Notes under the pieces: model-generated
Databases searched by the model: none
What the model was told of the DNA's origin: nothing
Seen by the model: the letters and a program-made list of their open reading frames with translations, nothing else
Shown: piece after piece, positions 39,612 through 50,942 of the stretch
How positions within the stretch are numbered: the first letter of the stretch is position 1
Layout: every line of letters begins with the position of its first letter
Assembly (NCBI GenBank): GCA_900498245.1
Contig: LS998015.1
Location: 2,641,648-2,705,647, forward strand
DNA: 64,000 bases
Source: Candidatus Zixiibacteriota bacterium
GTDB taxonomy: Bacteria; Zixibacteria; MSB-5A5; GN15; PGXB01
Direction: 5' to 3'
Position numbers and translations under genes: made by a program

Positions 39612-42080
39612 TTATTTACGGGCGGATCGAGCGGCAATTTTTTTGCCCGGGGCAGGGGTTTTGCGATTCTTGGCTTTCTCTATTTCCTCGGCAAAAATCT
39701 TCTCAAGAGTATAACTTGATGGGACAAAGTCGAGAAGCGCCTTCTCAAAGAGATCATCGACTGAATCTATAAAGATAAATTTAGTCTTTTTTAATATATC
39801 GGCCGGCAGATCCTTAAGATCCTTTTTGTTTTCCCTGGGGATGAATATCTTGGGAACCCCCGCCCTATAGGCGGCTGATATTTTTTCCTTAATGCCGCCC
39901 ACCGGCAAAACCTTGCCCCGCAGAGTAACTTCGCCGGTCATAGCGATATCAGGACGAATCGGCCGTTCCGACATCACCGATGCAATTACCAGGGAAACCG
40001 TCACGCCGGCGGAGGGACCATCCTTGGGTATGGCCCCCGACGGAAAATGGATATGAATATCGAAATTATCAAAATCGTTATGATCAATCCCCAGAATGTC
40101 AGCGCGGGCCCGCACATAGCTGTGAGCCGCCTGAATTGATTCTTTCATCACTTCCCCCAGGGAGCCGGTGGTGATAACTTCCCCGTTCCCTTTCATTTTC
40201 AGGCCCTCAATAATCATCAAATCGCCGCCGGTTCCGGTCCAGGCCAAACCGGTCGCCACCCCAATTTCCGCCTTCTTTTCCGGCTTTTCGGGAATGTAAA
40301 GGGGTGTTCCCAGAAAATTCTCGGCGGTTTTTTCGTTGACCGTCCAGACCCGATGAACATGCGCCGCCTTTTCCCTGGCGACATGGCGGCAGATCCGTTC
40401 TATCTGACGCCGAAAATTCAAAAGTCCCGCCTCCATCGTATAACTTCGAATTATTTTTTTCAATCCCTTCTCGGTGAATTTTATATCCCGCTTCAGCAGC
40501 GCATGTTTTTTAAGCACGGCCGGAATTATATAGCGATGCGCGATATAAATTTTCTCCCGCTCGATATAACCGGGCAGTTCGATGATTTCGAAACGATGCG
40601 CCAGCATCTCCGGAATGCCCTCAATCGATTTGACGGCGCAAATGAAAATGGCGCGACTCAAATCGATGGGGAGGCCGATATAACTATCCAGAAATCGCTT
40701 ATTCAGGCGCGGATCGATGGCTTCGAGAAGCGACATCGGCAAAGCCGTGTTGGCATCCTCCGCAAAATATTCGATATCTTCAATGAATACCACCGGATCG
40801 CAGGTCCCGGCATCGCGAAGGGTTCTGATTACGATACCCGGCACCGCGCCCCAGAAGGTTCGCGCCGATCCCTTGATATCCCCAATATCGACCATACCCC
40901 CGACAGAAATCCGTATGAATTTCTTATGCAGGGCCCCGGCGATGGCCCGTGCCAGAGATGCCTTTCCTGTCCCCGGCACCCCGGCCAGGCACAGCACCGA
41001 ACCTTCATCGATCCCGCCCGACAGTTGCCTGACCGCAATCCGCTCCAGAATCTGTTTCTTTATTTGAGGCGAGCCATAATATTCCTCGGCGATATCCTCT
41101 TCAACCTGTTTTATGTTGAATTTTTCCTTGGTGCAGACATTCCATGGAATATGCATCAGCCAATCAAGATACAGCTTGGTCGCGCCGTATTCGGCCGACG
41201 CGGTTGTGAGATGACCCAGACGTTCCACTTCGATCAGAGCCCGGTCGCGCACCTCTTCGGGAAGAAGCCGATTCTTTTTAATTTCATTCTTAAGATTAAT
41301 CGCCTCTTTGTCTTCGATAAATTCGTCACCCAGTTCTCGCTTTATCTCATACAGTTGCTGCCTTAAGAAAGACTTGCGTTGTTCCTCGGCGCTCTTTTCC
41401 TCGACCTTCTTCCTGATTTCGAACGATAGAGCCGCTTCGTCCAATTCGTCCTTCAAAAATTTGAGCAGTTTTTGCAGACGCAAGCCGATGCGAAAACTCT
41501 GTAAAATCTCCTGCCGGGCAATCAGGGGAAAATCGAATTGAGAGGCGATCTTGTCGGCAAAAGCACCGGGATTGCTGGTTCCATAACGGGCGGCAGTCGC
41601 CAGACGATCGGCATACATCGGGTTGACACGAGCAATTTGCTCGATGATGGTAATAATTTCTTTTGTCATGCGGGAGGCTTCGGAAAGCGAGGGTGGCATT
41701 TCCGAGATAAAACCGATACGGGCCGTTATATAAGGGGCACTTCTGCGCATCGACAGCAGAGCAATGCGCCGAACCCCCTCCAGAGTGACGAATTTGGAGT
41801 CCGAGGGGCCATCCTTTATGGAGATAATTTTGGCCGCGGTTCCGATTTGATAGAGGTCGATTTCCTTGGCGGCTCCGTCACTGGTGGGCGAATATGTGAC
41901 TCCCACCAGTCGGCCATGACCGGTATTTTCTGAAATCAAATCCAGATTCTCCGGACGCCCTATCTGCAGGGTCACTGTCTCGCCGGGAAAGAGAATCAGG
42001 GTTCGGGCCGGAATAATGGGCAATAGCGGCTCATCGTCGGCCGCCATAAGCGGAATATGCGATCCGGTCTTGATAATCAT
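39612..42080 (-). CDS. lon: Lon-family protease with altered ATPase motifs
   Basis: 822 residues with the LonA layout: LON substrate domain (about 18-205), coiled linker, AAA+ module (about 320-590) and C-terminal protease domain. The proteolytic dyad is intact: S690 in PKDGPSAG and the Lys of GGIKEK near 731. The ATPase site deviates. Walker A reads GVPGTGKAS (367-375), where the canonical Thr is A374. Walker B reads VFIEDIEY instead of LLDEIDK, so the DE pair is swapped to E434-D435. The sensor-1 Asn appears as K484. The arginine after the lid is kept (R496). It may be a divergent paralogue with weak or no ATP hydrolysis. The promoter carries a strong dyad. Confidence 0.9.
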
Positions 42081-42206: not shown

Positions 42207-44900
42207 TCAACTTACCAAACGAGGGGCCAATTCCCCGGCTATTCGCTGTAACTCATAGTCCGGGTGAGTCTTAAGATTTTCAAGGTTAAGCGTTATTTTC
42301 GACGGCTCCAGATCCAGGCGATAGTACCCGAGACGGTTATTCTCGAAAATCGTCCAGGGACACCCGCCATCCCGGTTAATCTCCTGCTTAAGCCGATAGA
42401 GATACCGGGCCTGGTTGAATCCGGCCTCGATTTCGTCCTTATATATCCAGCCCTCATGGCTGATTAGACGGGCGTGCGCCAATTTGACCAGATACTTGAA
42501 AGACTTCCCCGTCAGGCGAACCGGGAAGCCGTCGATTTTTATCAGATACCGCTCCCCTTCGTAGCATCCGTCGAGATCGAGCGACGACGGATGCGCCCCG
42601 AAGACCGGCAGGGCGGTCCCAGCCGGAGCGCTCTGGTGCGGCCGCAGTTGCGCCCGGTTAATGGTTGACATGAATCGTCCCATATTATCCTCCTCTTGCA
42701 GGGTTTTTATTTCATCGAGAAAATGGTTCAATTTTGCCTCCGGCTGTATCAGAGCCGATAGTTTTTCCCGGGGCATAGAAATAATCTCCCCGGGGAATTT
42801 CAGATTATTTTCCCGCAGGATACGATAGTCGTTCCGATTGAGAGTATTTCCGGCGAGGGAGTGCAGAAAGCGCATCTCGGACGGAACGCCGAACTGCACG
42901 GCAAAAGAGTAATCGTCGAGTTCCCGGGGCAACACCGAGCCGGCGTCACCGGCGCGGACAATCTTTCCCGCCGCCGCCAGAAGCCAGGCGGCGTTTTCCG
43001 CCAGATGCACAATCTGGCCATGATGCAGTTGATATCGCTGTTCCAGTTCTTCTACCCCTCTACCCTCGGCCCACTCGGAAAGGAGAACAACCGCCTTCAA
43101 TACGGCGGCCGTACGAAAATCGACCGGCTCGCGGCCGATTCTTGCATCGCAATAAAGATTGGCCTCTCCCAGGAATTCCGAAAATTCCTGGAGAAACAAC
43201 CTCTCATATTGACGTCCCCGATATTCGGAGGCCGTAAGAGAGGCCAGCGCCGTATTGAAATCACCGCCGGCCAGCGTCGCTGTCAGCCAACCGATAAGAT
43301 TCCGCGGCATGCCGTTATTAAGGCGGATCTTAAGACGGGAATAACTCTCGCTGGAAAGACCGCTTTGCGCCACCGCTTCACCCGCCGGTCCGGGGGTAAT
43401 TTCACCGTGCAGAAGATTGCTTTTCCGCAATGATGCCACAGCCCGGTCCAGCGCTTCCGGGTCAATCGCTTTGACCCGATACCCGAAAGTACCACCTAAC
43501 GCTTTCTGGAGCGTTTCCCGATCGGCCGCAATACCGCTGACCGCAAAATCCAGAATGATATCTTCAAGTCTATAGTTGCCGAGAGCCGAAACAACCGGGC
43601 CGCTGCGGCGGGTTTCGATATAACTCGACCAGAGCACCTCATGCTCGAATTCCGAGCCCGCCAGAATAATGGCCCGCCCCGGGCAATCCCGATCGCTCAG
43701 GCCGAATCGTCCCGCCCGACCGGTGATATTTTGAAATTCCGACGGGGTAATCGGGACCAGCGACGGTTTACCTCCGAAATTCCCCGATACATATTTCATC
43801 GTCTCCAGAAGGACCATCTCCGCCGGAAGATTAACCCCCATCGCCAAAGTCGTGGTCGAGAAGATCACTTTTATCTCCCCGCGCATATATCCCTGCTCGA
43901 CGGCCCGGCGCTGCGACGGGGTCAAATCGGCGTTATGAAACGCCACCCCGCGCGACAGGACCTGCCGGAGAGAGCGGATCAGAAAACTCTTTTCCTCATA
44001 TTCCAGCTGGCCCAAGGTCACTCCGGCTTCGCTCCAATCGACCGCGGCCGCCAGCCGGAACGCCGCCGCGATGGTGTCGCGGCGCGATTTGAGAAAAATC
44101 AGCTTGCGGGCGCTATCATTTTTGAGAAACTCTATCAGACTTTCGGTCAGATCCCTATTATTGCCGTACAATTCGAAATTCTCTCTTCCCTCGATGCCGC
44201 TATTGAAACTCCGAAAATGAAAACAACCCTCGGAAACAATACCCTGCATCAGATCGACCGGACGCACCGTTTCCCGAATGATTCGGCAGGAGAGCCATCG
44301 CGCCAGATCATCGGCCTCGTCGATTACCGCCGAAAGGGCGATTAAACGCGGGCCATAGTTGGAAGTAATAATCTTGGTGAGAGCCATCTCGAGTTCCGGT
44401 CCCCGCTCGGGATCTCCGACCATCTGGAATTCATCGATAACAACCAATCCGATCTGCTGCAGGACATCGACATTGACCGTCAGCAGACGATTGAATTTTT
44501 CATATATCACGAGCGCCAGATCGAAATTCCCCAGTTCAAAATCGATATCGTTCTCGGGGTGGTCGCCGGTAACAATAATAATTCGGATGCCGATGTTCTT
44601 ATAGCAGGTCCGAAAATGCTCATACTTCTCTTCGGCAATCGACTTCAACGGCAGGAGCATCACCGCCTTCTTCCGCTTCAGAAGGGTCGCCATCGCGGCC
44701 ATCTCCCCGCAGAATGATTTCCCGGCCGAGGTCGGCGCGGAGATAAGAAGATTTTCAGCCATGCCATATCTATCATGCGGCAGAAGTCCGGCCCGGATCG
44801 CCTTTTCCTGTAGCGGGAGAAGGTATTCTCCCTGGCGGTTCTTCCAGGCATCGAGAATCATCTCCGGTATATCATATTTGGCCAGTTCTTTCAGCCGCAT
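42207..44900 (-). CDS. Ski2/Hel308-like superfamily 2 helicase with C-terminal winged helix
   Basis: 897 residues. Motif I is SAPTSAGKS (K61) and motif II is DEFQ (156-159), unlike the DEAD or DEAH forms. FSTTTLAMGVNLPAEM and FQNITGRAGRFG are motifs V and VI of the Ski2-like group. After an all-helical middle, residues about 785-866 resemble an OmpR/PhoB-type winged helix (GFPVRLTGKSFKYLVKL ... RYLYRLKQEIN ... NNRLGYYRLDL), probably for DNA binding. It is probably a DNA repair or processing helicase. It lies 27 nt downstream of a small zinc-ribbon gene, with GAGGAGG before the ATG. Both would be read from the promoter at 45160-45188, which contains a LexA-like box. Confidence 0.88.
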   Translation of the reverse strand: MRLKELAKYDIPEMILDAWKNRQGEYLLPLQEKAIRAGLLPHDRYGMAENLLISAPTSAGKSFCGEMAAMATLLKRKKAVMLLPLKSIAEEKYEHFRTCYKNIGIRIIIVTGDHPENDIDFELGNFDLALVIYEKFNRLLTVNVDVLQQIGLVVIDEFQMVGDPERGPELEMALTKIITSNYGPRLIALSAVIDEADDLARWLSCRIIRETVRPVDLMQGIVSEGCFHFRSFNSGIEGRENFELYGNNRDLTESLIEFLKNDSARKLIFLKSRRDTIAAAFRLAAAVDWSEAGVTLGQLEYEEKSFLIRSLRQVLSRGVAFHNADLTPSQRRAVEQGYMRGEIKVIFSTTTLAMGVNLPAEMVLLETMKYVSGNFGGKPSLVPITPSEFQNITGRAGRFGLSDRDCPGRAIILAGSEFEHEVLWSSYIETRRSGPVVSALGNYRLEDIILDFAVSGIAADRETLQKALGGTFGYRVKAIDPEALDRAVASLRKSNLLHGEITPGPAGEAVAQSGLSSESYSRLKIRLNNGMPRNLIGWLTATLAGGDFNTALASLTASEYRGRQYERLFLQEFSEFLGEANLYCDARIGREPVDFRTAAVLKAVVLLSEWAEGRGVEELEQRYQLHHGQIVHLAENAAWLLAAAGKIVRAGDAGSVLPRELDDYSFAVQFGVPSEMRFLHSLAGNTLNRNDYRILRENNLKFPGEIISMPREKLSALIQPEAKLNHFLDEIKTLQEEDNMGRFMSTINRAQLRPHQSAPAGTALPVFGAHPSSLDLDGCYEGERYLIKIDGFPVRLTGKSFKYLVKLAHARLISHEGWIYKDEIEAGFNQARYLYRLKQEINRDGGCPWTIFENNRLGYYRLDLEPSKITLNLENLKTHPDYELQRIAGELAPRLVS

Positions 44901-44927: not shown

Positions 44928-45119
44928 TCAACCGCAACTTCCGAAACCACAAACCGGGCAGGAAAAACAGCCGCCGAGGCGAATCAATGTCACTCCGCAG
45001 TCGGGGCAATTGACATTGGGGCCGGCCGCGATTGCCGCACCGGCTATCAGTCCGGCCGTCTCCATTCCCCGGGAAACGGCAATCGGAACCAAATCGGTAT
45101 GATTGTCATGGTTTGTCAT
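44928..45119 (-). CDS. Small zinc-ribbon protein resembling the NrdJ C-terminal tail
   Basis: 63 residues from ATG 45119, 9 nt after AGGAG; a TTG at 45128 is a less likely start. The C-terminal half has C38/C41, C51/C54/C57 and C62 in the order CPDCG...GGCFSCPVCGFGSCG. This resembles the zinc-ribbon end of B12-dependent ribonucleotide reductase NrdJ, but here it stands alone. A hydrophobic Ala/Gly-rich stretch (TAGLIAGAAIAAGP) precedes it and could be a short membrane or packing helix. It is the first gene before the helicase, under the same probable SOS promoter. Function is unknown; a nucleic-acid or protein-binding accessory is plausible. Confidence 0.75.
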   Translation of the reverse strand: MTNHDNHTDLVPIAVSRGMETAGLIAGAAIAAGPNVNCPDCGVTLIRLGGCFSCPVCGFGSCG

Positions 45120-45159
45120 AATATTCAACTCCTTCTTGAATCTTTATCGACGCAAAAGC

Positions 45160-45188
45160 AAAATACTGCACATTTGTGCAGTTGTCAA
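45160..45188 (-). promoter_or_regulatory. Promoter of the zinc-ribbon/helicase operon
   Basis: On the minus strand TTGACA (45183-45188), 17 bp, TATTTT (45160-45165). The whole spacer is filled by the palindrome at 45165-45182. Confidence 0.75.
45165..45182. promoter_or_regulatory. LexA-like SOS box
   Basis: ACTGCACATTTGTGCAGT: 8-bp perfect arms around a TT centre. The core TGCACATTTGTGCA fits TGCNC-N4-GTGCA, the LexA box I recall for Fibrobacter succinogenes, another FCB bacterium. It sits exactly between -35 and -10, where a bound repressor blocks RNA polymerase. Match is seen; LexA identity is inferred. Confidence 0.7.
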
Positions 45189-45371: not shown

Positions 45372-48032
45372 CTACTTGAGCAGGAGCATCTTTTTCGACG
45401 CCGTAAAATCGCCGGCAGTCAAGCGATAAAAATAAATCCCGGTCGGTAAAATGCGACCCGAATTATCCGTTCCATCCCAACGCACAATCTTGTATCCAGC
45501 ACCATCACTTCCCGAAAATGCCCGCACTTTCTGACCTACAATACTGTAAATGCCCAATTCCCAGTCAGTCCGGATCGGCAAAGCAAAGCGGATATCTGTT
45601 GCCGGGTTAAACGGATTCGGATAATTCTGATATAAGGCAAAAGCCCGTGGCAATGAAAGCGCGGAACCCTCATCAAGGCCGGTCGGATAATCGTTGACAA
45701 CATCAAGGTTAATCACTTCACCCAAATATCCGGCCGCGAGGCTGTAAGATAATTGCGGCGCAGTACCGGAAAAAACAATCTCCAGAAGTTTCTGCTCTTC
45801 TGTTCCGATACTATCATCGACAAGAATTCGCAGAGAATCATCCGCCAGATTATATCCCATTAAATCTATTCCGTCGCCGGGTATAATCTGATATGAGCCC
45901 AGATTCGGCGCGTGGAGATTCAAAAATATGGCCCCTATCGGGATATCGAATTTGCCGTAGACGGTCAACGAAGTATCACCCAGAACCAAATTCAGCGAAC
46001 CGCTGGAGGAGGAATTCTGTTTGGGAAAGGGCGGAATGACGCCGTCAATTATACGATCCAGATAAGTATAATCCTCTATTGTCAAAACTATGCCGTCTGC
46101 ATTAATATCGGTTGCCGCAATTTGACCTTCTCTATTTATGGTAAAGGCGCTCATCCCCTGAAGGAACCAATTGGCGAACGTGATCAGGTCGGCGATCTCG
46201 TTACTGATTCCGTTTAAGTTGATATCACCGCGTGAATCAATCGTATCGGCGCATATGATATCTATCTGCCCGTCAATAAAATCGACATAGCGGATTGTGC
46301 TGAAACCCCAGACGCTATCATCCAAACAGAATTGCGGGGCGCCGTTGAAAGTGGGAAAAGAATCGTACAAATTTGTGATTTCCCGGCTTTGATCAAACAC
46401 CCGGGATGATATGGCGCTCTCCACAAACCTTCCGCTGGTATCGGAATGCCTGCGCATCAGAATCGCATTATCCATGCAATCATCCCAGAAAAACCGCAAT
46501 GGAAGAGTCTGGCATTCCCAGATACGGTCGTTGGTCACATTGAAGTCGACGGAGAACAATATTGTACCATCGGGAATCTCCACCCGAGACGGAGGCGGGG
46601 TCAGACTGCTTGAGGCATATCCCACGACACTCACTGCGCCCGGGGGGCAGGACAGGCAGCGGGGCGCAGGATTGTAAGTATATGAGAAATATTCCCATTC
46701 ATATGGACCCGGACTTTCAAATATTACTCCCGGGGTCGCGCTGGATAGTGAGAGGGCCACCAAATCAAAGGCGATCCTGAAATGAAACGCCCAGAGTTCT
46801 TCACTCCCCTTGACCTTAATCACCGGGACTATCGCATGATGGCCCTGAAGAACTTTTTCCAATTTTCCGATTTCAAACGCGAAAGGAACGACTTCCGCTA
46901 CATTGAATCTCACTGAGCACTCATCAAAAAGGCCTCCGCAATCGGTAACCCGGGCTGTGAAATTTATGATTTTCCCCTGGTCTTCGGGTAACTGCGCTTG
47001 GTAGGTAAGGATACCCAATGAGTCAATTCTATAGGGGCCGGACGGGACCGGATCAACAGCAGTAATACTCCAGGAAAGATGATCCCCTGAATCGGGGTCG
47101 CCGGCGGCGAAATATGCGTGAGACGGGTAGTCGCCCGCAATTACTTCCGTATCGCATCCCCGCGAGATTTCCGGCGCCGAATTCCCAATGATCAAATTAG
47201 ACAGGCAGTGTTCAACTTCTGACCCCGTCAAAGAATGGAATCTGTCGGTGGCAGCGATATCCAGCGCCAGGCTCTTCCCAAAATCACTGCACTCTGGAGA
47301 ATACGTCCATCTCCCCGTCAAAGAGTCAATCGTTCCGGGACCGGAAGCGATGCTGTACAAGACAGTATCATTCTCCCAATCAAGGGCGACAACGTCATAG
47401 GTCATCAATTGTCCCGCTTCGCCGACTATGGATGACGGGCAATTGTCGAAAATGGGAGAACGATTGGGGTTATTTCGGATGGTCCAGCACTGTTTTGTGA
47501 ACGATGGAACGGGGTCTTCAAAAAGCCAGCCATAAACATAATTTTCATTTCCGCCGCTGTCGATACATATCGTCCCTATCGTGTCCGGCACGGTCAGCGA
47601 TATTGACAGGGCCCTAAATTCTCCCGTCTCGGAGGGCAATCCTGCGAAAGTGGCGATTCCGACAAAACAGTACATATTCGGCAATATGGAATCCCAACTT
47701 TCGGTGTAGGAAGTATAAAAATTATCCCAATAACTTAAAAAGTCGTTCCGAGGGAATTCATCCGGATTCCCGAAGTAAACTTTGGAGGCCCCGTCTTCTT
47801 CGTTTATCGTAAAGGGGCTTGACCAAACGTTTCGGGAAAACTGGGAAACACCACAAGATGCGTATATATCAATTGAAAATGGAATATTGGGAGAGATATA
47901 CTTGACGCCGTCGTGGGTATAAGCCCCCACGCCGGAAATATCGGCACGGATGACTATTTCGCCCTGTCCGAAAACAGTTCCTCCTAATAGCATTAAGGAT
48001 ATTAATATCCCCATCAGTTTCAACGAATTCAT
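45372..48032 (-). CDS. Large secreted protein with cohesin-like, dockerin-like and C-terminal sorting domains
   Basis: 886 residues from ATG 48032, preceded by AGGAGG and starting a signal peptide (LKLMGILISLMLLGGTVFGQ). Two cadherin/Ig-like segments contain NRSPIFDNCPSS and LTGRWTYSPECSDFGK. A cohesin-like module (IGKLEKVLQGHHAIVPVIKV ... WAFHFRIAFD) is followed by an EF-hand pair (GDINLNGIS..., ATDINADGIVLTIEDYTYL). The last 80 residues are a FlgD/T9SS type A-like tail (YQNYPNPFNPATDIRFALP ... GIYFYRLTAGDFTASKKMLLLK). It is probably exported and attached at the surface. The neighbour at 48291 is a close paralogue. No T9SS machinery gene is in the window. Confidence 0.82.
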   Translation of the reverse strand: MNSLKLMGILISLMLLGGTVFGQGEIVIRADISGVGAYTHDGVKYISPNIPFSIDIYASCGVSQFSRNVWSSPFTINEEDGASKVYFGNPDEFPRNDFLSYWDNFYTSYTESWDSILPNMYCFVGIATFAGLPSETGEFRALSISLTVPDTIGTICIDSGGNENYVYGWLFEDPVPSFTKQCWTIRNNPNRSPIFDNCPSSIVGEAGQLMTYDVVALDWENDTVLYSIASGPGTIDSLTGRWTYSPECSDFGKSLALDIAATDRFHSLTGSEVEHCLSNLIIGNSAPEISRGCDTEVIAGDYPSHAYFAAGDPDSGDHLSWSITAVDPVPSGPYRIDSLGILTYQAQLPEDQGKIINFTARVTDCGGLFDECSVRFNVAEVVPFAFEIGKLEKVLQGHHAIVPVIKVKGSEELWAFHFRIAFDLVALSLSSATPGVIFESPGPYEWEYFSYTYNPAPRCLSCPPGAVSVVGYASSSLTPPPSRVEIPDGTILFSVDFNVTNDRIWECQTLPLRFFWDDCMDNAILMRRHSDTSGRFVESAISSRVFDQSREITNLYDSFPTFNGAPQFCLDDSVWGFSTIRYVDFIDGQIDIICADTIDSRGDINLNGISNEIADLITFANWFLQGMSAFTINREGQIAATDINADGIVLTIEDYTYLDRIIDGVIPPFPKQNSSSSGSLNLVLGDTSLTVYGKFDIPIGAIFLNLHAPNLGSYQIIPGDGIDLMGYNLADDSLRILVDDSIGTEEQKLLEIVFSGTAPQLSYSLAAGYLGEVINLDVVNDYPTGLDEGSALSLPRAFALYQNYPNPFNPATDIRFALPIRTDWELGIYSIVGQKVRAFSGSDGAGYKIVRWDGTDNSGRILPTGIYFYRLTAGDFTASKKMLLLK

Positions 48033-48141
48033 CACGCCTCCTGGTAAAACATTGACCTCAGGATTGGAGCTTGCACTCATGATCAGGGACGGCGGGCGGG
48101 ACCTGATAAATTTTATTTATTAAAAACAACCTTACAGGTAC

Positions 48142-48169
48142 ATTATAATGGGAAAGCAATATTTGTCAA
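48142..48169 (-). promoter_or_regulatory. Promoter of the first sorting-tail protein gene
   Basis: On the minus strand TTGACA (48164-48169), 16 bp, TATAAT (48142-48147): both hexamers perfect, leaving a leader of about 100 nt. Confidence 0.82.
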
Positions 48170-48232
48170 TCAATTTCAAACACTGAAATTTGAATTTATG
48201 TCTTTTATCGACGATCCAATCCACAATTAATT

Positions 48233-48271
48233 AAAGATAAAGGCAGGGCTTTTAACCCTGCCTTTATCTTT
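48233..48271 (-). terminator. Terminator hairpin after the second sorting-tail protein gene
   Basis: Perfect 16-bp stem AAAGATAAAGGCAGGG / CCCTGCCTTTATCTTT with a 7-nt loop, 20 nt after the stop at 48291. Its core equals the hairpin at 45319-45346, so the duplication included the 3' end. Confidence 0.8.
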
Positions 48272-48290
48272 GTGCCCATGTATGTGAGGC

Positions 48291-50942
48291 CTACTTGAGC
48301 AGGAGCATTTTTTTCGAGGCCGTAAAATCACCGGCCGTCAAGCGATAAAAATAAATCCCGGTCGGCAGAGTCGTACCGTTATCATCGGTGCCATCCCACC
48401 GGATTGTCTTGTACCCGGCGCCGTCACTGCCGGAAAAGCCCTGTACCTTCTGGCCCGCAATATTATAAATATCCAGTCGCCAGTCGGTTCTTGTCGGAAG
48501 AGCAAATCTGATTTCGGTCACAGGATTGAACGGATTGGGACGATTCTGCTCCAGGGCAAAGGAAATCGGCAAGGGAGAATCGCCCGTCACCGGAATATCG
48601 GTGGGGTGTTCAAATAATTTGGCCACCGTTACCTTTTCGCCAAAATACCCCGCCGCCGCACAATAGGCCAGCTCCGGAAGGGGCCCTTTGCAGGCGATCT
48701 CGAACAGGGTCCGTTCCGCTGTGCCGATACTATCGGTCAGCAAAACTTTAAGACTGTCATGCGAAAGAGCGCTTTTGACATCACCGCCGATATCATAATT
48801 TTGCAGCTCCGGTGCGTAGAAGCAAAGATGGACCGCTCCCACGGGCAAATCGAATTTGGAACGTACGATTATGGAGGAATCTGTTTCCACAAATGTTAGA
48901 GTTCCCGTAAACGCGGGATCTATCGGCGCTCCGGGAGACATGGTCCCGAATATGATTCTCAGCATATAAACGTAATCTTCGAGCGTAAGTGCTTCGCCGT
49001 CCAGATTGATGTCCGACTGGGCGGCCTGCATCTCGGGGTTAATGGCCAGAGCCTGACGCCCGTAGATAAAGAAGTTGGTAAATATGACGGCATCGGCGAC
49101 TTCGTACGCGATCCCATTGAGATTAATATCCCCGACCGTCACGGTGCTATCCGGGCAGATAATGCCGATACCACCATTGTGAAAATCAATGAAACGAAGC
49201 GGCGGCGGCCCGGAAGTGCCCCCTTGAAGGCATTCATTTAGAGCCCCGGTATATGTGGGGAAAGTGCCCTGCGGATTGGTTATTTCACCGTCAAAATCAA
49301 AAACACGCGATGACAGGGCGGTGCCGATATTGAAAGCCAGAGTGTCACCGCGATTTCGGAACGCCAGCAGATTGTCGCCGCAATCGGCCCAATAGAATTG
49401 AATCGGCAAATACATGCATTCCCAGACGGGACTTTCCGAAACCATGAAATTCATGTTGAAGATTACAGTATTATCCGGGACGAGTTTTGTTAGCGGATGG
49501 TGAATACCGTCATTCATATCGGCGATTCCGGCTACTCGTATCAGGCCCGACGGGCAGTTGTCGCCGCAATTTACAGATGGGCCGAAACGGGCGCTGAAAT
49601 ACTCCCATTCATACGGCCCCGGATTCTGATACAACACGCCCGGCTCCGCCCCGGAGAAGGAAAGCGCCAGGGCATTATAGGCAATCAGAAAATCGAATCC
49701 CCATATTTCTTCGGTCCCCGAGTTTTTAATTACCGGAACCTGGACATTCCTGCCCTGATGCATCACTTCCAGAAACCCGATATTTATGCCGAAAGGCAGG
49801 CGGTCGGTGACAGCGAAGGTTACTTCGCAACTGGAACTATCCCCGGCGCAGTCGCTGACTCGTACTGTAAAATCAAAATCTATCCCCTGATCCGCCGGCA
49901 GTTGCGGCGTAAACGACAAATGCCCCGTGGAATCGATGAAATATGTCCCGGCCGGGGACGGATTGACATCCGCTATTTCCCAGTTAAAAATATCACCCGG
50001 ATTGGAATCGTTGACAATAAAATTGGCCTGGGCCGTATACCCTCCGGCCTGAAGCGTTGCCCCGCACGGTCCCGAAATGACCGGTGCACTGTTATATACG
50101 TTGATATCTGGGGTGCAATGCTCCGTCATCGGCCCGGTGGCGCTGTGGAACCTGTCGGTGGCGGCAATATCGAGACTTATGGTTTGACCGACCTCAGAGC
50201 AATGGGGAACATAGCTCCATAATCCGCTTAAAGAATCTATCGTGCCCGGCCCGGAAACGATCTGATATTTAATCGTGTCGTTTTCCAAATCGGCGGCCTG
50301 GAATGTATATGTCATAAGATGGCCATGCGAACCCGACAGGGAGCGAATGCAATTGGTGAAGGTTGGCGCCTGATTGGGATTATTCTTCACCGGCCAGCAG
50401 GTCTTGGTAAAACCGGGCACCGGGTCATCAAACAGCCAGGAATAGACGATGTCCTGATTGCCGCCGCTGTCAATGCAAAGATTACCCAGGGTATCGTTGA
50501 TAACGATATCGATGGAAAGCATTTTGATTTCGCCGGAATTTATCGGAAATCCATGACTTACCCCGACCCCGACGTAGCAGTACATATTGGGCAAATTTCC
50601 ATCCCAACTCTCAACATGGCCGAGACTGAAAAGATCCCAATAGGCCTTGAAGACCGGCTGGGGATAAAGGGATGTATCTCCGAAAATGGCATGCGCAACT
50701 CCCCCGGAACCGCTGAATGTAAACGGCATCGATAAGGCGGTCCGCTCAATGCCTCCCGGTCCGTTGGTGGCGTAAATATCGACAAATATATGGGCCCCGG
50801 GATTAATCGTCTTGATGGATCCGTCGAGGTAAACACCCGGACCGGAAATATCGGCCCGAATCGTAAAGGGATTTTGCGCCAGCGCCGCGCCGCCGAGAAC
50901 TACACAAAATAACAGCCACAGGAATCCGCCTTGAATTTTCAT
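48291..50942 (-). CDS. Large secreted protein, paralogue of the adjacent sorting-tail protein
   Basis: 883 residues with the same architecture as the product at 45372-48032. It has a signal peptide (FLWLLFCVVLGGAALAQ), Ig-like segments (NQAPTFTNCIRSLSG, LSGLWSYVPHCSEVGQ), a cohesin-like module (VMHQGRNVQVPVIKNSGTEE) and an EF-hand pair (GDINLNGIAYEVAD, QSDINLDGEALTLEDYVYML). The same FlgD/T9SS-like tail (QNRPNPFNPVTEIRFALP) ends in an identical KKMLLLK. GGAGG precedes the ATG. The two genes form a tandem duplication, each with its own promoter. Ligand and function are unknown. Confidence 0.82.
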   Translation of the reverse strand: MKIQGGFLWLLFCVVLGGAALAQNPFTIRADISGPGVYLDGSIKTINPGAHIFVDIYATNGPGGIERTALSMPFTFSGSGGVAHAIFGDTSLYPQPVFKAYWDLFSLGHVESWDGNLPNMYCYVGVGVSHGFPINSGEIKMLSIDIVINDTLGNLCIDSGGNQDIVYSWLFDDPVPGFTKTCWPVKNNPNQAPTFTNCIRSLSGSHGHLMTYTFQAADLENDTIKYQIVSGPGTIDSLSGLWSYVPHCSEVGQTISLDIAATDRFHSATGPMTEHCTPDINVYNSAPVISGPCGATLQAGGYTAQANFIVNDSNPGDIFNWEIADVNPSPAGTYFIDSTGHLSFTPQLPADQGIDFDFTVRVSDCAGDSSSCEVTFAVTDRLPFGINIGFLEVMHQGRNVQVPVIKNSGTEEIWGFDFLIAYNALALSFSGAEPGVLYQNPGPYEWEYFSARFGPSVNCGDNCPSGLIRVAGIADMNDGIHHPLTKLVPDNTVIFNMNFMVSESPVWECMYLPIQFYWADCGDNLLAFRNRGDTLAFNIGTALSSRVFDFDGEITNPQGTFPTYTGALNECLQGGTSGPPPLRFIDFHNGGIGIICPDSTVTVGDINLNGIAYEVADAVIFTNFFIYGRQALAINPEMQAAQSDINLDGEALTLEDYVYMLRIIFGTMSPGAPIDPAFTGTLTFVETDSSIIVRSKFDLPVGAVHLCFYAPELQNYDIGGDVKSALSHDSLKVLLTDSIGTAERTLFEIACKGPLPELAYCAAAGYFGEKVTVAKLFEHPTDIPVTGDSPLPISFALEQNRPNPFNPVTEIRFALPTRTDWRLDIYNIAGQKVQGFSGSDGAGYKTIRWDGTDDNGTTLPTGIYFYRLTAGDFTASKKMLLLK

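Follow-up and report, generated by a model that had tools for sequence, protein, structure and literature searches.

In a Candidatus Zixibacteriota genome, a palindrome that is very probably a LexA operator fills the gap between the -35 and -10 hexamers of the sigma-70-type promoter of a zinc-ribbon/helicase operon and recurs in the lexA promoter, so placed that LexA would repress both promoters and DNA damage would derepress the two. The operon lies in the window analysed here, a 64-kb stretch of a genome assembled as one contig of 3,508,505 bases (3.5 Mb). Direct reading of the window gives AAAATACTGCACATTTGTGCAGTTGTCAA for the plus strand at 45160-45188, and CTTGACA-ACTGCACAAATGTGCAG-TATTTT for the minus strand at 45188-45160. 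On that strand a -35 hexamer TTGACA (45183-45188) is separated by the 17-bp spacer ACTGCACAAATGTGCAG from a -10 hexamer TATTTT (45160-45165), in exact agreement with the first-pass annotation, which had described a palindrome filling the space between these two hexamers. The predicted operator, ACTGCACAAATGTGCAGT (45165-45182, minus strand; core CTGCACAAATGTGCAG at 45166-45181), has perfect arms, ACTGCACA and TGTGCAGT, and only its two central bases break the symmetry. A promoter scan scores the helicase promoter 10/12 with a spacer of 17. Since operator and promoter overlap, LexA binding there would block RNA polymerase, and the same overlap is found before lexA. TGCNCNNNNGTGCA, the pattern first proposed for the site, occurs once in the 64-kb window, against 0.16 occurrences expected in shuffles.

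The genome-wide distribution of the box is narrow. Without mismatches CTGMACANNTGTKCAG is found at only two genome sites, the helicase promoter and the promoter of the sole canonical lexA, and no site anywhere in the genome differs from it by exactly one mismatch. The lexA box, CTGAACATCTGTGCAG, stands immediately behind TTGACA, within an upstream sequence (TTGACA-TCTGAACATCTGTGCAG-TAGTTT) laid out identically to the helicase promoter. A wider pattern including TTGAC returns the same two promoters at zero mismatches and noise only at two to three, while two mismatches in CTGMACANNTGTKCAG admit 11 further sites, all coding except one AT-rich intergenic site; these were rejected as additional regulon members because nearly all fall within coding frames. 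The core suggested originally, TGCNC-N4-GTGCA, holds for the helicase site but not for the lexA site, TGAACATCTGTGCA, which carries one mismatch, and CTGMACA-NN-TGTGCAG fits both promoters better. In the genome TGCACNNNNGTGCA occurs at two places, the second within a coding frame, and the literal TGCAC-N4-GTGCA was discarded as a genome signature since it hits that coding frame and misses lexA. The first-pass annotation had also proposed looking for a box before lexA in the same genome, and one is present there as well as across the phylum.

The product of this lexA is the one canonical LexA among the S24 search matches of the whole genome, scoring 217.6 bits with TIGR00498 (cut-off 111) and containing LexA_DNA_bind and S24 domains. 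Inspection of the sequence by eye found the Ala-Gly, Ser and Lys cleavage residues all present, so that domains and residues together provide the HTH, the Ala-Gly site and the Ser/Lys dyad of a cleavage-competent LexA. The palindrome might instead serve another regulator of both lexA and the helicase, either an extra S24/LexA-like protein or an unrelated dimeric repressor, given that the host genome has further S24 repressors and that the helicase box persists in three relatives (G116, G118 and G122) in which LexA is not matched at E 1e-30. Divergence, a frameshift or incompleteness may account for these missing LexA proteins. The extra repressors of the host, however, sit in an island, and only one of them is closely LexA-like (36% identical), whereas the box and canonical lexA occur phylum-wide. 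Given autoregulation, LexA is the natural owner of a box in the lexA promoter, and ownership by a different repressor appears very unlikely. Two S24/LexA-like repressors (L005 1465-2100 and L004 1471-2289, at about 167-180 kb of G000:C1) lie in the island, which adjoins a SMODS nucleotidyltransferase and a TIR-domain protein, and LexA-like control of this SMODS/TIR defence island is possible.

Comparative evidence strongly supports the prediction of a LexA operator at the helicase promoter. A first set of 30 helicase loci from the order included 26 with upstream sequence, four being cut by contig ends, and all 26 have the box, with no more than two mismatches. With ten further genomes, in two of which helicase and box lie on the ends of separate contigs, the total reaches 36, and the promoter-plus-palindrome precedes the helicase operon in 36/36 testable genomes of the order. 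The same arrangement is found before lexA in 31/31 tested order genomes (30 loci and G005), with a weaker right half (GGGCAG) in the lexA boxes of family f4, and relatives retain TTGACA at both boxes. When a matrix trained solely on sequences of the order was applied to genomes beyond it, 34 of 38 helicases and 36 of 40 lexA genes proved to have the box upstream, compared with 6/760 and 7/800 shuffles, respectively (<1% each). In 40 genomes CTGNACANNTGNGCAG falls almost exclusively in helicase and lexA promoters, with three matches for the reversed control. The letters of the box also vary jointly at the two promoters (Fisher p 0.007, in a test that ignores relatedness): family f8 has TGAACATCCGTTCAGT at both, and in families f18/f19 both boxes drift toward GTTCAG. 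A comparison of LexA recognition-helix residues with this shift singled out no clear residue. Two f7 genomes, G047 and G048, have neither a LexA match nor a helicase box.

Conservation also bears on whether the inverted repeat, instead of serving as a protein operator, might function in RNA or end transcription of the upstream unit as an intrinsic terminator. Nearly all relatives have it placed between -35 and -10, and it recurs in the lexA promoter. The promoter scan does list ACTGCACAAATGTGCAGT-ATTTTGCTTT as terminator-like, but relatives do not keep the T tract, having TATATT, TATCTT or TATAAT in its place. On this variation the terminator reading was rejected, and a role at the RNA level is barely conceivable. 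With the palindrome best taken as a LexA operator, its presence in the lexA promoter and its retention at both places throughout the phylum make it very probable that DNA damage induces the helicase. Some boxes lie in other settings. In one genome (G009, L101 3661-4283) the box is followed by only the last 170 helicase residues and then by lon, reflecting a deletion or a misassembly, and perfect boxes that do not precede a known SOS gene occur in G018 (L097 2086), where the box precedes a row of small related genes, and in G009 (L102 708).

In the host genome lexA, a DUF6504 gene and dinB (L226 472-2652) run in one direction at close spacing, the latter two overlapping, and this order recurs in families f1-f3 of the order where the contig reaches. 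In a further genome (G033, L099 1-2977) a box lies upstream of imuA-imuB, encoding a RecA-like ImuA and a Y-family ImuB. A box before recA, which the first-pass annotation had likewise expected of a LexA site, was found neither in the host genome (G000) nor in 30 recA upstream regions of the order, where the best score was 5.6 compared with at least 18 for true sites. As a LexA target recA was consequently rejected, and with recA lacking the box the regulon departs from the textbook SOS scheme. Whether the Zixibacteria SOS response amounts to a very small circuit of few promoters, with recA outside and the Hel308/PolQ-like helicase with its winged helix as the most constant target apart from lexA, we consider an evenly balanced question; if it does, the helicase would represent a damage-controlled equivalent of HELQ/PolQ in bacteria.

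Profiles, AF2 and Foldseek broadly bear out the earlier description of the operon as coding for a zinc ribbon and a helicase with a C-terminal winged helix. The zinc-ribbon protein (44928-45119, minus strand; CPDC-x9-C-x2-CPVC-GFGSC) is conserved in most relatives, its start being likelier the ATG at 45119 behind AAGGAG than the TTG at 45128, and this standalone protein is similar (E 1.3e-6) to the cysteine tail at the C-terminus of vitamin B12-dependent ribonucleotide reductase. Most families have the ribbon gene between box and helicase; none was found in families f8, f12-f14 and f17, which leaves the helicase as the constant part. The latter, a Hel308/PolQ-like SF2 protein of 897 aa (42207-44900, minus strand), begins 27 bp past the zinc-ribbon stop and is 78% identical to that of its closest named record, from an uncultured candidate division Zixibacteria bacterium. 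Its profile aligns over residues 8-722 with the Hel308 structures 2va8, 2zj2 and 2p6r (E about 1e-99) and over residues 6-751 with the PolQ helicase domain. Taken with a match to the archaeal domain 4 PF21280 (30 bits, cut-off 27), the 8-722 alignment spans the SF2 core, winged-helix and ratchet domains of the Hel308 architecture. The NCBIfam Hel308 equivalog is nonetheless well under its cut-off (205 vs 1200 bits). Motif II reads DEFQ, and the motif IVa of Hel308/HELQ, F/YHHAGL (PMC10484726), is absent, with AFHNADL in its stead; F321, H322, D325 and L326 are invariant in a 30-sequence alignment. The last 130 residues (42207-42599, minus strand) are modelled by AF2 at pLDDT 84, with OmpR-family DNA-binding domains as the top Foldseek matches (E 0.04, probability up to 0.99), and they probably form an OmpR/PhoB-type winged helix, albeit of weak likeness. 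A full-length AF2 model built from 3 sequences was discarded (pLDDT 39).

Hel308-type function rests on homology, and a LexA-controlled helicase could also have RNA as its substrate or serve anti-phage defence instead of DNA repair. HamB (Hachiman) profiles match the protein, to E 5.5e-36, as do the RNA helicases Ski2 and Mtr4. The HamB and Ski2 matches are mainly confined to the motor domains, however, whereas that to archaeal Hel308 extends over nearly the whole length (8-722) and that to the PolQ helicase domain over residues 6-751. No HamA-like nuclease adjoins the gene, whose neighbours are the zinc ribbon, a Lon-like protease and secreted proteins, and the helicase is near-universal in the phylum (orthologues in 39/40 relatives and 123/133 phylum genomes), unlike a mobile defence gene. 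A role outside DNA repair is therefore rather unlikely. The Lon-like protease gene (39612-42080, minus strand) lies downstream of the helicase across a 126-bp gap and follows it in most of the order. The secreted proteins, encoded at 45372-50942 of the window, are two long paralogues of 902 and 883 aa with a common tail resembling a sorting signal.

From these data, and from established knowledge of LexA and of Hel308-type helicases, on which damage induction and a repair role depend, we infer LexA occupancy, LexA cleavage, induction, and the substrate and role of the helicase as follows. In the undamaged cell a LexA dimer on CTGMACA-NN-TGTGCAG would block RNA polymerase at the lexA and zinc-ribbon/helicase promoters, repression of the former being autoregulation, in the host genome possibly of the whole row lexA-DUF6504-dinB. 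Upon damage, RecA filaments would trigger LexA self-cleavage and both promoters would open, yielding the Hel308/PolQ-like ATP-dependent helicase and, probably, a translesion polymerase. The likely task of the helicase would be to unwind or remodel intermediates of stalled forks or of recombination, to which its own C-terminal winged helix may direct it. For an uncultured phylum this would supply a LexA motif and add to the core SOS targets a gene not commonly counted among them, while recA, lying outside, would mark a clear departure from the usual pattern. A Hel308/PolQ-like helicase, of a type known mainly from archaea and animals, would be tied to a bacterial damage response, making its repair role directly testable. 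In the literature searched, which took in a minority of subscription journals, nothing was found on a Zixibacteria LexA regulon or a LexA-controlled Hel308.

Among known systems, the LexA box that the first-pass annotation ascribes to Fibrobacter succinogenes, TGCNC-N4-GTGCA, is a pattern that the helicase site fits and from which the lexA site is one base off. The LexA/SOS regulons of E. coli, B. subtilis and the Bacteroidetes (PMC8565304) share with the Zixibacteria a canonical LexA, predicted in the latter to be autoregulated, a palindromic operator overlapping the promoter and, probably, translesion polymerase genes in the network; the passages of PMC8565304 consulted name no motif like that of the Zixibacteria, CTGMACANNTGTGCAG. 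They differ in that the Zixibacteria recA lies outside and that, after lexA, a Hel308-like helicase is the target retained most constantly. Bdellovibrio bacteriovorus, to judge from a title (Campoy 2005, cited in PMC12288472 and PMC8565304), has an SOS system without canonical targets and so resembles the Zixibacteria in leaving canonical SOS genes outside LexA control, but its motif, given as TTAC-N3-GTAA in PMC8565304, is different. In Hachiman, HamB is partnered by the HamA nuclease, which the Zixibacteria helicase does not have alongside. The likeness to archaeal Hel308, metazoan HELQ and the PolQ helicase domain is carried by the two long profile matches (8-722 and 6-751) and PF21280, and the Zixibacteria protein is set apart from them by its DEFQ and AFHNADL motifs and its extra C-terminal winged-helix-like domain.
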